NCBI RefSeq assembly: GCF_024648885.1 | Contig: NZ_JANBBF010000011.1 | Location: 62,001-126,000 of the forward strand | DNA length: 64,000 nucleotides | Origin: Prauserella salsuginis | Lineage (GTDB): Bacteria > Actinomycetota > Actinomycetes > Mycobacteriales > Pseudonocardiaceae | Direction: 5' to 3' | The notes under the pieces: generated by a model | Database searches by the model: none | Seen by the model: only the letters and a program-made list of their open reading frames with translations | What the model was told of the DNA's origin: nothing | Shown here: piece by piece, positions 26,769 to 35,545 of the stretch | Layout: the number at the start of each line of letters is the position of its first letter | Numbering within the stretch: the first letter of the stretch is position 1 | Program-made: the position numbers and the translations under genes

Positions 26769-28241
26769 TCATCCGCGCAGCATCTCCGCCACCAGGAACG
26801 CCAGTTCCAGCGACTGCTGAGTGTTGAGCCGGGGGTCGCAGGCCGTCTGGTACCGGCCGGCAAGGTCGACGTCGGAGATGTCCTGGGCTCCGCCGAGGCA
26901 TTCGGTGACGTCCTCACCTGTCAGCTCGACGTGGATGCCACCGGGGTGGCTGCCCAGTGCGCGGTGCACCTCGAAGAACCCCTGCACCTCGTCGACGACG
27001 TGATCGAAGTGGCGGGTCTTGTATCCGGTTCCGGACGAGTACGTGTTGCCGTGCATCGGGTCGCACTGCCAGACGACCTGATGTCCCGACGCTTCGACCT
27101 TCTCGACGATCGGAGGCAGCACGTCTCGGATCCGGTCGCTTCCCATCCGGGTGATCAGGGTCAGCCTGCCCGGCTCGCGTCGCGGATCGAGCCGCGTGGC
27201 GTACTCGACCGCTTCTTCAGGTCTGGCATCCGGACCGAGCTTGACGCCGATCGGGTTGTGGAGCAGTTCGGCGACCGCGATGTGGGCCCCGTCGAGCTGG
27301 CGGGTGCGTTCACCGATCCACAGGAAATGTGACGAGAGGCCGTACAGCCGCGGCTCGTCCCGCTCGGTCTCGTGCAGGCGCAGCAGTGCTCGCTCGTAGT
27401 CCAGCAGCAGCGCTTCGTGGCTCGCGAAGATCTCGGTCGAGTGCAGGGAACCGTCGTCGACCCCGCAGGCCGACATGAACCGCAGCGCACGCTCGATCTC
27501 CGTGGCCAGTGCCTCGTATCTCGCGCCCGCCGGCGAGGTGCGGACGAAGTCCTTGTTCCAGTCGTGCACCCGTCCTAGACCGGCCATGCCTTCGCCGGTC
27601 ATCGTGCGGACGAGGTTCATCGCGGCGGCCGCGTTGGCGTACGCCCTGATCATTCGTCCGGGGTCGGGCACGCGGAGAACCGGATCGGCCACCGCCGAGT
27701 TCACGATGTCGCCGCGATACACCGGCAAGCCCTCGGTGTCGGTCGACTTCGACCGGGGCTTGGCGTACTGGCCCGCGATCCGGCCGACCTTCACGACCGG
27801 CAGGCTCGCACCGTAGGTCAACACGACGGCCATCTGCAGCAGCGTCCGTACATTCGCTTCGATGTGCGCTTCGGTGTTCGACTCGAACGTTTCGGCACAG
27901 TCGCCCTGCAACAGGAACGCCTTGCCTGCGGCGACATCGGCGAGCTGCCGCCGCAACCGGTCCACTTCGGCAGGCACCGTGAGCGGCGGGACGTTCTCCA
28001 GGACCGAACGCGCGTGGCGGGTCAGCTCGGGATCGGGCCACTCGGGCTGCTGCGCCGCAGGGAGCTCGAGTGCTTCGTCGAGCCGGGCGCGCAGCCACGC
28101 GGGCAGCCGGGGCAGCCCCGGCAGGGTGTCCAGCGGCACGTCGACGGTCCACCACCGGCCCGGCGAGGCGTCCGTCGAGGAGACCGTGGGTGTGGCAGGG
28201 GCAGTGGTGCCGGTTCGGTCGCTTTCGGAGGGCGGTGTCAT
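26769..28241 (-). CDS. Class II 3-deoxy-7-phosphoheptulonate (DAHP) synthase
   Basis: 490 residues, plant-type (class II) DAHP synthase. Landmarks: [84 protein letters not shown] and [12 protein letters not shown]. It condenses PEP with erythrose-4-phosphate, the first step of the shikimate pathway. It is the last gene of a seven-gene cluster of flavoenzymes, where such copies usually boost precursor supply. It could also be the housekeeping enzyme, which the window cannot exclude. ATG 28241 follows GAAAGG. Confidence 0.92.
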
Positions 28242-28296
28242 GACGGCCTTTCCTCGCCGGAACAGGGGGCGATGACGACGGGCATACGGTCGGTGG

Positions 28297-33288: not shown

Positions 33289-34695
33289 TCAGGACAAGTA
33301 CCGGGACGGCCCGAACAGGCCGGTGGGGTCGAGCGCGTCCTTGAGCCGGGCGGCGACGACGGCGTTGAGGTCGGTACCCGGGGCGACGTCGCTCCGGTGG
33401 TGCGCGGTGTCGAGTCGGTACGGCGGGTAGCCGGCGTCGACGAGTGCGCGCTGGATCTCGTCCGATGCCCGGTGGGCGGCCTCCGTCGCGTTCGCCGAAG
33501 CACGGTCGAACCGGATGGCGATGACGAGGTCGACCACGTCGTGGCCGAGGACGTTGACGGTGGTGCCGACCTCGACACCGTGTCGGGTGCCGGCCTCGCG
33601 CACGATGCCGCGGGCGTTGCCCAGGTCGGCGGCGGTGAAGGGAACGAACGGCAGCACGAAGATCCAGCCCCGGCCGGCCGCATCCGCTTCGTGAGTGGAC
33701 CGTCCCAGTGAGGCCCGCACGATGCTTTCGCTCTTGGACACGTCACCCCGGTACAGCCGGGCGACGGCACCTGCGAGCGGATCGTCGGCGAACTCGTCCT
33801 CCGGCAGCACCCGGGCACCGATCGGTGCGAGCCTGCCCGCGAGGTCGGCACGTTTGGCCGAGACGACGTCCGCGCTGCCGTCGAGGCAGATGTGCCCGGT
33901 CACGGTGGCGTTTCCGCCGTAGATGTCGGAGGAATCGGCGTCGTAGACCTTGATCACGGCGTCGCTCAGCCGATCGCGCACGGCACCACGCAGTACCTCG
34001 ATCAGCGCGTCGTAGCTGTCGTCGGCCGCGGTGAAGGTCAGCACGCTGGTCTCCTCCGGGGTCGGCAGCAGCCGGACGACGGCAGCGGTCGCGATACCGA
34101 GCGTCGACTGCGGGAACACCTGAACCGACGACGGGCCGAGGCCGTACTTGTTGGGTGCCAGCCCGGAACCCGGTGGCCACCAGCCGACGGTGCCGACGTC
34201 GGCGGCTGCGGTCACGATCTCGAGTCCGAGGAGGTCCTCGGTCCGCTGGTGCCGGAGGCCGACACCGCGGTCCATCGTGTTCCCCAGCACGGACGTTTCC
34301 GGTGAGGACGCGGTGCAGTTGAGGAACCGCCCCGATCCTGTCAGCGCGTCGCAGAGTTGCGCCTGCGTCACTCCTGCTTCGACGATCGCGTAGCCGCGTT
34401 CGACGTCGATCGTCCTGACAGTGTCCAAAGCAGACAGATCAACGAGGTGCTGGCCGGGAATCGGGCCCGATGCGGAACCCAGGCCCCAGTTGAAACCGCT
34501 GCTCACCGCCCGGAACCCACCGGCGCCGCTGCAGCCCTCGCGCACCAGGGACACCAGCTCGTCCACCGAGTCCGGGCGATGGATTCGGTCGGGCTCGGCC
34601 GCGGGAAGCTCACTGACGTTGCGGCTGTTGGGCGCCGCGGCCCTTGTCGCGGTGATGCGTCCACTCGTGTCGGAGTGCGACGTAGCTGAGTTCAT
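33289..34695 (-). CDS. FAD-linked oxidase of the VAO/PCMH fold
   Basis: 468 residues. FAD-binding PP-loop domain (RAVSSGFNWGLGSASG, YAIVEAGVTQAQLCDAL, TASSPETSVLGNTMDRGVG) and a C-terminal substrate domain with WPPGSGLAPNKYGLGPS near its start; the latter recalls vanillyl-alcohol oxidase and 4-cresol dehydrogenase. These enzymes oxidise para-alkylphenols or benzylic carbons, which fits a shikimate-derived phenol. ATG 34695 has GGGAG eight bases upstream, so the 86-base overlap with the upstream gene's end looks genuine. Confidence 0.85.
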   Translation of the reverse strand: MNSATSHSDTSGRITATRAAAPNSRNVSELPAAEPDRIHRPDSVDELVSLVREGCSGAGGFRAVSSGFNWGLGSASGPIPGQHLVDLSALDTVRTIDVERGYAIVEAGVTQAQLCDALTGSGRFLNCTASSPETSVLGNTMDRGVGLRHQRTEDLLGLEIVTAAADVGTVGWWPPGSGLAPNKYGLGPSSVQVFPQSTLGIATAAVVRLLPTPEETSVLTFTAADDSYDALIEVLRGAVRDRLSDAVIKVYDADSSDIYGGNATVTGHICLDGSADVVSAKRADLAGRLAPIGARVLPEDEFADDPLAGAVARLYRGDVSKSESIVRASLGRSTHEADAAGRGWIFVLPFVPFTAADLGNARGIVREAGTRHGVEVGTTVNVLGHDVVDLVIAIRFDRASANATEAAHRASDEIQRALVDAGYPPYRLDTAHHRSDVAPGTDLNAVVAARLKDALDPTGLFGPSRYLS

Positions 34696-35545
34696 CGGAG
34701 TAGCTCCCGTCGAGATTGCTCAGTCGTCCTTTCCGGACGGATTCGCAGTGGTAGGAGGAGCGCTCGGCGACCGCAGCGGATCGGCGGTTGGCCGGCTTCA
34801 CGCCGAGTTCGATCCGCTGGACCGGGGCAGCGGTGAAGGCCCATCGCGTGAAGCCCCGTACGGCGCGGGTGGAGACTCCCTTGCCGCGGTGGGCAGGCAT
34901 GGTCACGTACCCCACGTCGAGAACTCCCGGTGGGACGACGCGGCGCACCGACAACTTCGCGAGCGGGGGACCTGCGGGCGATGCGCGGGCGATCAGGAAC
35001 GAGGCCGGACCGACTCGCCATCGGTAGTAGGCCGAGCCCAGCAGCTCGATCAGTGCCTGCCGGTCCAGTGGTTCGGTGAGGGCATGCAGCCGCGCCCCGG
35101 GATCCTGCTCACAGGCGAGCAGGTCCGCCAGGTCGTCGGGGTGCGGATGGGTCAGTACGATCCCGTCGGCGTCGATGCCGTCCGGTGGAATGCGGGGAAG
35201 CCACTCGCATGCGGTGGCGGGGACGGCGAAATCGCGGGTCAGCACCACGGGCGCATCCGGCTCGGTGCGCTGCGCGAATGTGACCGGGTCGAGCACGAAA
35301 CCGTGCTGTGCCAGCACATCGATCACCGCATGATCAGCGGCCCCGGCCTCGGCGTGGACCCGGCTTCGCTCGGTTCGCCAGTCGTTGATCGCGGCGGGCA
35401 GGTCGTCGAGTGTGAGGCCCGGCCACGATCCTGTCGTGGATTCGATCCGGATCGTCGTCGTGGAATCGTTCGTGGGGCTGAGAGAATTGTTTTCGGCATG
35501 ACTGTGAGTGCGCGCGTCGAAACGCGCGCCGATGTACTGCTTCAT
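34610..35545 (-). CDS. GNAT-type N-acetyltransferase, first gene of the flavoenzyme cluster
   Basis: 311 residues. The C-terminal ~170 residues form a RimJ-like GNAT domain with the acetyl-CoA loop YVTMPAHRGKGVSTRAVRGF and ELGVKPANRRSAAVAERSSY. The N-terminal ~130 residues have no clear identity and may be a degenerate second acyltransferase half. Start is ATG 35545 or GTG 35554; GGAGG lies between them, too close to the ATG. It may acylate an amino group of the product or confer self-resistance. Its final 86 bases are shared with the start of the next gene. Confidence 0.8.
   Translation of the reverse strand: MKQYIGARFDARTHSHAENNSLSPTNDSTTTIRIESTTGSWPGLTLDDLPAAINDWRTERSRVHAEAGAADHAVIDVLAQHGFVLDPVTFAQRTEPDAPVVLTRDFAVPATACEWLPRIPPDGIDADGIVLTHPHPDDLADLLACEQDPGARLHALTEPLDRQALIELLGSAYYRWRVGPASFLIARASPAGPPLAKLSVRRVVPPGVLDVGYVTMPAHRGKGVSTRAVRGFTRWAFTAAPVQRIELGVKPANRRSAAVAERSSYHCESVRKGRLSNLDGSYSDELSYVALRHEWTHHRDKGRGAQQPQRQ

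Follow-up and report, generated by a model that had tools for sequence, protein, structure and literature searches.

A nine-gene locus in Prauserella salsuginis and a possible assembly-line-free route from tyrosine to chlorinated N-acyl amides

What could a bacterium make from a class II DAHP synthase, an acyltransferase and a run of flavoenzymes with no assembly line beside them? Such genes occupy positions 25097-35554 of a 64,000-nucleotide stretch of Prauserella salsuginis DNA (contig NZ_JANBBF010000011.1, positions 62,001 to 126,000), which we call the window. Our answer, which we hold at a probability of roughly one half, is a nine-gene pathway, free of any nonribosomal peptide synthetase (NRPS), that would convert tyrosine into a small N-acylated, ring-chlorinated and ring-hydroxylated derivative, either a styrylamide or a dehydrotyrosine. 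The side-chain outcome is less certain than the type of pathway, and we infer the substrate, the order of steps, the chlorination and the product from sequence.

In the proposed route, the extra DAHP synthase would raise flux to tyrosine, whose amino group would be acylated by the GNAT-family enzyme. The VAO-type enzyme would then abstract a hydride at the benzylic position of its N-acyl-4-hydroxyphenyl substrate, and the resulting p-quinone methide could lose CO2 to give an N-acyl-4-hydroxystyrylamine, or a proton to give an N-acyl-dehydrotyrosine. Chlorination of the phenol would fall to the halogenase-like enzyme, with FADH2 probably delivered by the FNR-type reductase; the PHBH-type enzyme would hydroxylate the ring; and an MFS exporter under ArsR control and a CPA2 antiporter would serve export and ion balance. 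We favor a reading through N-acyl-tyrosine and a quinone methide because the same elements recur together: genes that supply tyrosine, an enzyme that provides the acyl group, a VAO-type enzyme, enzymes that oxidize or halogenate the ring, and an exporter. If this is right, chlorinated styryl-amides would be made by a few free-standing enzymes instead of an NRPS, and such clusters may escape rule-based detectors.

A conserved nine-gene unit

The original prediction was of a bordered block of seven minus-strand genes, fed by the DAHP synthase. The open reading frame (ORF) list, Pfam and NCBIfam confirm the seven ORFs, their coordinates, their overlaps or short gaps and their families, and the parts of the conserved block fit the product then envisaged, a small shikimate-derived aromatic compound, oxidized and probably halogenated and acylated. 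Gene order and content are indeed conserved elsewhere, but the borders were wrong: an ArsR regulator and an MFS exporter belong to the unit. The feeding role agrees with the DAHP synthase being an extra copy in the genome, although the gene is absent from the Saccharomonospora version.

The minus-strand run begins with the gene for the GNAT-family N-acyltransferase (34610-35554; Acetyltransf_3 in Pfam), for which start comparison favors the ATG at 35545 as the likely true start. It overlaps by 86 bp the gene for the VAO/PCMH-type FAD oxidase (33289-34695; FAD_binding_4 in Pfam), which is followed by that for the flavin-dependent, CmlS/CndH-like halogenase-like enzyme (31928-33259; Trp_halogenase in Pfam). 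The PHBH-type monooxygenase (30696-31931; FAD_binding_3 in Pfam and NCBIfam) was called as an over-long ORF of 646 amino acids; by start comparison it most likely begins at 31931, 4 bp over the halogenase stop. After an overlap of 8 bp comes the CPA2 cation/proton antiporter (29381-30703; Na_H_Exchanger in Pfam), followed by a reductase with FNR and [2Fe-2S] parts (28297-29364; likely start at the ATG at 29331) that is PaaE-like by Pfam and NCBIfam and scores 162 bits against the PaaE model TIGR02160, below its cut-off of 420.8. The run continues with the class II DAHP synthase (26769-28241), the second of the genome, and the remaining gaps measure 16-55 bp. Beyond it, the ArsR-family regulator (26386-26748, plus strand; Pfam) and the MFS exporter (25097-26335, minus strand; Cmx/CmrA-like in NCBIfam, below the model cut-off) are divergent, with 50 bp between them. 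The PHBH-type protein (30696-31931) reads GGGVPS, and the Saccharomonospora version GGGVPA, where GxGxxG is the usual form.

All nine genes are collinear with the window in P. alba DSM 44590, at 84-98% identity, and all nine occur in the same order, over two contigs and at 58-84% identity, in Promicromonospora umidemergens, a member of another order; the GNAT stands at 84% and 58%, respectively. One Promicromonospora contig carries the six genes from GNAT to FNR, up to a contig end with an integrase-core (transposase-type) fragment. The other, presumably adjacent, opens with the DAHP synthase, and ArsR and MFS come next, as expected. Regulator and exporter are kept in P. alba, Saccharomonospora and Promicromonospora alike. 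Against P. alba, the ratio of nonsynonymous to synonymous substitution rates (dN/dS) is 0.06-0.26 across all nine genes, which indicates purifying selection on the whole set. This selection and the conserved arrangement in other genomes show that the set is not a chance grouping. We found no description of it in the literature, as judged from titles and abstract openings, and one may exist elsewhere.

The VAO gene is present in two of the seven same-genus genomes of the 297-genome draw used for the first VAO search; this set, the 394 Streptomycetaceae genomes searched below and another 394 are draws from larger groups. Within the genus the flanking DNA is conserved, and the variable segment, as bounded by breaks in the alignments, spans about 24262-36151. 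In G067, a Prauserella lacking the cluster, fragments of ArsR (residues 76-120, 91%) and MFS (residues 245-409, 91.5%) persist at the site as a decayed copy. ABC-transporter genes (solute-binding protein and ATPase) stand there instead in G033, and G133 is similar by eye. The site is variable in Prauserella (L174 2940-3550; L175 2994-8226; L176 about 4770-9990), with ArsR/MFS remnants in one species and ABC-transporter genes in two. No near copy of the cluster turned up among the plasmids of PLSDB, where two records matched over 5% and 1% of the query.

The DAHP synthase scores 677 bits against TIGR01358 (cut-off 614.7), and there are two class II DAHP synthases in each of three genomes, that of the window, P. 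alba and Promicromonospora. For the copy on the Promicromonospora cluster contig, identity is 86.7-87.4% against Pseudonocardiaceae housekeeping copies, 79.7% against the cluster copy of the window and 59.1% against the second copy of Promicromonospora itself, which supports descent from a Pseudonocardiaceae-like donor. Since this copy is of Pseudonocardiaceae type, horizontal transfer is likely; the halogenase tree, in which Promicromonospora lies nearer Prauserella than Saccharomonospora does, again points to transfer. Taken together, the nine genes probably form a self-contained, horizontally transferred pathway.

The VAO-type enzyme and its companions

We propose, by analogy, that the VAO-type enzyme is an oxidative decarboxylase or desaturase of N-acyl-tyrosine. 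Its family profile matches p-cresol methylhydroxylase (PCMH) at 170 bits over the full length. A precedent is the chondrochloren (cnd) pathway of Chondromyces crocatus, where an FAD enzyme is described as converting an acyl-tyrosine to a dehydrotyramine by oxidative decarboxylation via a quinone methide (PMC3039461, section 9). A search covering 183 genomes located the chondrochloren region in G759 through 100% identity to a CndH fragment. There the last NRPS gene (condensation, AMP-binding, carrier and thioesterase domains) is followed, with a 4-bp overlap, by the gene for a 541-amino-acid FAD_binding_4 protein, which the window VAO profile matches at 227 bits, its only match in the 60 kb searched. 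Family and position suggest that this is the described acyl-tyrosine decarboxylase, which we take to be CndG. A GY-PYRL stretch with a Tyr-Arg pair is common to both proteins. The C-terminal pair Tyr426-Arg427 of the window enzyme (Y425-R426 in alignment numbering) aligns to the YR of PCMH, and its Arg is invariant in 14 of 14 family members. In VAO/PCMH-type 4-phenol oxidases, the covalent-FAD residue is given as His in oxidases and Tyr in dehydrogenases (PMC7617285). By eye, no equivalent of it was seen at the expected positions in our alignments to PCMH and the chondrochloren protein.

To judge from sequence comparison, the halogenase-like and VAO-type enzymes are homologues of the chondrochloren pair, CndH and the VAO-type protein that ends the cluster. 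The combination was originally thought to be without precedent. That view has to be given up: besides this pair, glycopeptide clusters share with the window unit a DAHP synthase, of a differing type, a halogenase and an antiporter. We know of no VAO or GNAT counterpart in glycopeptide clusters. Their DAHP synthase is called type I-alpha and their ion antiporter StaN, they include a flavin halogenase, and they use tyrosine-derived residues (PMC11727664), whereas the window has a class II DAHP synthase and neither an NRPS nor a P450 in its unit. Chondrochloren biosynthesis, for its part, uses polyketide synthase (PKS) and NRPS enzymes, whereas the window unit has no assembly line and adds a GNAT, a DAHP synthase, a PHBH-type enzyme and an antiporter. 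The predicted lack of PKS and NRPS genes was borne out: two PKS, one NRPS and one AMP-ligase query, one cnd NRPS and one cnd PKS among them, gave no hit at E 1e-4 in a search that covered the 64-kb window. Because no assembly line was found there, we class the unit under neither type; by analogy, it may work like the terminal part of the chondrochloren pathway joined to a glycopeptide-like set for supply, halogenation and antiport.

In Spongiactinospora (L075), the locus of a VAO relative comprises genes for MFS, AroH chorismate mutase, VAO, formyltransferase, flavin reductase (HsaB/FerA-like, below cut-offs), CPA2, halogenase, PHBH-type enzyme and SDR; its chorismate mutase and formyltransferase stand in for the DAHP synthase and GNAT of the window. 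Most flavin halogenases are said to obtain reduced flavin from a partner reductase (PMC8407142). A flavin reductase is encoded close to the L075 halogenase, and since the FNR protein is the only one of this kind in the window, we infer that it serves the window's halogenase as reductase.

Neighbors were counted with markers drawn from the window, L034, L075, L098, L219 and L226, so that these loci count by construction. Nineteen of the 394 Streptomycetaceae genomes match the L075 VAO at E <= 1e-50. An HsaA-type gene accompanies it in 13, always beside a VAO at least 50% identical to that of L075; tyrosine-supply genes were found in 6, acyltransferases in 7 and flavin reductases in 8. The acyltransferases divide into three formyltransferases and four Eis-type GNATs, the latter not shown to be related to the window's GNAT and detected with a marker from L219 that lies on the opposite strand to the L219 VAO. 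Pseudonocardiaceae outside Prauserella and G144 gave 15 loci with a VAO match below E 1e-60, of which 12 were counted (G243, G250 and G006 were left out): HsaA-type genes occur in 5, tyrosine-supply genes in 2, acyltransferases in 2 and flavin reductases in 4. As controls we used 28 distant-halogenase loci and seven other stretches (three Prauserella site stretches and four of the chondrochloren region). HsaA-type, tyrosine-supply and acyltransferase genes were each seen in 0/28 and 0/7, and flavin reductases in 1/28 and 0/7.

Among the Streptomycetaceae, L219 (1-11337) has genes for chorismate synthase, EPSP synthase, prephenate dehydrogenase, chorismate mutase and DAHP synthase beside HsaA-type and VAO genes, so that a large part of the tyrosine supply line is carried in one cluster. 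In the same family, formyltransferase, VAO, chorismate mutase, HsaA-type and flavin reductase genes stand together in L222, L225 and L226, the last reading flavin reductase, chorismate mutase, VAO, HsaA-type, formyltransferase, cupin, MFS and SDR. These three are candidate tuberin/erbstatin-type clusters. Tuberin and erbstatin, dehydrotyrosine amides of Streptomyces, are N-formyl structures not known to carry chlorine, and the predicted core of the window product is of the same type. They are described as simple dehydrotyrosine derivatives (PMC3039461). No gene cluster for either was found in the literature, as far as titles and abstract openings tell.

PLSDB contains a VAO relative in 38 plasmid records, of which four regions were read. 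GNAT, VAO and HsaA-like genes are consecutive on plasmids of Providencia rettgeri and Proteus mirabilis (L234 8044-11520 and L237 4044-7520) and on Rts1 of Proteus vulgaris (L235 5037-8619); a Vibrio nigripulchritudo plasmid (L236 3713-11634) carries LuxR, GNAT, VAO, HsaA-like, cupin, MFS, SDR and flavin reductase genes. The plasmids with the trio are conjugative or mobilizable and gammaproteobacterial. The window GNAT is 40% identical to the Providencia GNAT over 117 amino acids (E 5e-25) and 33% to the Vibrio GNAT over 186, the matching part being its C-terminal half, and the plasmid HsaA-like proteins share 51-53% identity with the L226 protein. Because the plasmid GNATs and VAOs are homologous to the window's, the GNAT-VAO pair recurs between phyla. 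The two genes are adjacent on the plasmids and in L034, one of two Pseudonocardiaceae loci (with L036) that have such cassettes; in contrast to the window, all of these have an HsaA-type (acyl-CoA-dehydrogenase-family) gene in place of halogenase and PHBH-type genes.

A wider generalization is tentative and, in our estimate, has the odds somewhat against it. The VAO-type enzyme may mark widespread, apparently undescribed assembly-line-free pathways, in Actinomycetota and on gammaproteobacterial plasmids, in which an N-acetyl- or N-formyltransferase caps tyrosine, the VAO enzyme forms an N-acyl-dehydrotyramine, and ring enzymes (HsaA-type, or halogenase plus PHBH) are interchangeable. The Streptomycetaceae versions with chorismate mutase and formyltransferase would be the tuberin/erbstatin candidates, and the window would be a chlorinating branch that moved between orders with its DAHP synthase. 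An N-acyl- or N-formyltransferase gene beside a VAO-type gene could then serve as a genomic marker for finding clusters in distant bacteria and on plasmids, and, if true, the scheme offers a testable route to tuberin/erbstatin-type compounds.

The halogenase-like enzyme and rival readings

The halogenase-like enzyme carries K75, WVWAIP and FVDPIFSGG. The FAD motif, WxWxIP, Lys75 and FxxPxxSxG, which we take to be the signature of flavin-dependent halogenases, are invariant across an alignment of seven sequences. Its best solved match in a PDB search is 3e1t (E 8.7e-47), which is CndH of the Chondromyces crocatus chondrochloren pathway (PMC8407142). A doubtful but serious alternative is that the protein is a monooxygenase and the product oxidized but unchlorinated. 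NCBIfam matches, none reaching its cut-off, include QhpG, a monooxygenase, and geranylgeranyl reductases, and the motifs do not discriminate; against this, the best PDB matches by E-value are mostly labeled halogenase, and Lys75 and both signature motifs are kept in the clade. A chloramphenicol link was rejected: the Cmx-like MFS and CmlS-like halogenase fall far below the equivalog cut-offs, the latter at 179 bits against the 900 of NF033113.

A pattern scan of an 84,980-species collection yielded 73 halogenase relatives, L072-L074 being more than 70% identical. In a tree of 52 rows, grouped by hand from neighboring genes (of L069 and L094, which are one Frankia contig, the tree includes L094 alone), the window, P. 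alba, Promicromonospora, Saccharomonospora, L075 and L067 (of G429) form one clade (100/97), with L075 and L067 sister to the other four and a CPA2 neighbor in all six rows. The same tree bears on a second unlikely but comparable alternative, a cluster of the same kind acting on another shikimate product, such as 3,5- or 3,4-amino-hydroxybenzoate (AHBA), anthranilate or hydroxybenzoate. The DAHP synthase is neutral between chorismate branches, and 17 rows were assigned to AHBA ansamycin clusters, 15 on an AHBA-synthase match and 2 on PKS and RifF type alone, and 4 to 3,4-AHBA clusters, of which 3 have both GriH and GriI types and 1 has GriI only. However, the AHBA rows form a single clade separate from the window's, the window yielded no homologue of AHBA synthase or GriH, chorismate mutase and prephenate dehydrogenase accompany some VAO relatives, and the substrate in the chondrochloren precedent is an acyl-tyrosine.

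It is less probable still that the unit is an accessory operon that tailors a scaffold built by an assembly line encoded elsewhere in the genome, in the manner of chondrochloren and glycopeptide biosynthesis. Those precedents, the tailoring character of the enzymes and the tethered substrate indicated for CndH speak for it, but the block also occurs in a second bacterial order, where regulator, exporter and DAHP synthase again accompany it, and the acyl- and formyltransferase companions could supply an amide without an NRPS. VAO-, PHBH- and PaaE-like enzymes, ArsR and MFS occur together in catabolic operons, as a matter of general knowledge, which leaves a slim chance of an aromatic degradation or detoxification operon; the DAHP synthase makes aromatics, however, a halogenase-like enzyme is present, and no ring-cleavage family is among the nine. 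The PaaE-like reductase and DAHP synthase also raised a tropone/tropolone route using host phenylacetate genes, which we set aside as very improbable: like the scaffold-free trl cluster of Streptomyces, which pairs its own DAHP synthase with flavin monooxygenases (PMC7497051), the unit has its own supply gene, and the genome has PaaA and the PHBH-type enzyme a weak match to tropone 2-monooxygenase (8rqh, E 1.6e-4), but the nine proteins contain no enoyl-CoA hydratase domain of TrlA (PaaZ-ECH) type, one ECH_1 query had no match in the window, and the GNAT, VAO and halogenase take the place of that gene, the first two without a role in such a route.

Points against the tyrosine proposal

Several observations weigh against the N-acyl-tyrosine pathway. 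The VAO-type enzyme is only 25% identical to the chondrochloren protein (116/463 positions), and Leu72 (L71 in alignment numbering), Leu in 14/14 family members, is Tyr in that protein and in PCMH. The halogenase-like enzyme is 32% identical to CndH over 374 amino acids, and its motifs are kept in 16/16 distant relatives, one scan pattern having selected for WAIP; because all 16 share them, they are no proof of chlorination. No other single context is as frequent among its relatives as AHBA-type clusters (21/52 tree rows). CndH is indicated to work on an enzyme-tethered substrate (PMC8407142), and no carrier protein was noticed in the unit, no search having been aimed at lone carrier proteins. 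AlphaFold models of the GNAT and VAO proteins (mean pLDDT 40.2 and 59.5) are too poor to use.

Supply of tyrosine raises further points of the same kind. Tyrosine-supply genes were unseen in 13/19 Streptomycetaceae and 10/12 Pseudonocardiaceae VAO stretches. Saccharomonospora sp. NB11 retains 7/9 genes, with the VAO truncated and neither GNAT nor DAHP synthase at the locus; its whole genome holds one class II DAHP synthase. The Promicromonospora cluster copy groups with housekeeping copies (92/95), not with the Prauserella cluster copies. Because the two kinds of cluster copy are not closest kin, the cluster may have gained a DAHP synthase gene twice, and a single cluster-borne lineage is not demonstrated by the tree. 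In addition, the window copy reads QGDC, one Gly being missing in frame from QGGDCAE (codons 27897-27908, residues 112-115), a motif whose Cys is presumably a metal ligand; QxGDC is intact in 13/13 other copies, P. alba and Promicromonospora among them. The gene is still under purifying selection, by its dN/dS of 0.107 against P. alba.

Some minor observations concern other loci and the rest of the window. A tyrosine-lyase match at 41707-43059 (38%) was read by eye as the histidine ammonia-lyase of a histidine-utilization region and not counted, and far from the cluster, at 61482-62882 on the minus strand, lies a gene for an acyl-CoA-dehydrogenase-family protein 25% identical to HsaA-type proteins. 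Four halogenase-relative loci are near aromatic-amino-acid-lyase genes; the one scanned is BagA/FevW-like (690 bits, below the cut-off of 1000). CPA2 homologues occur in 14 of 46 halogenase loci, in otherwise differing clusters (for example L075, L098, L101, L104, L107, L109 and L111). Three loci of the Streptomyces family (L231, L232 and L233) combine a larger CndH-like halogenase (ORFs of 593-597 amino acids), a VAO-type gene (32-33%) and CPA2 genes within 16 kb.

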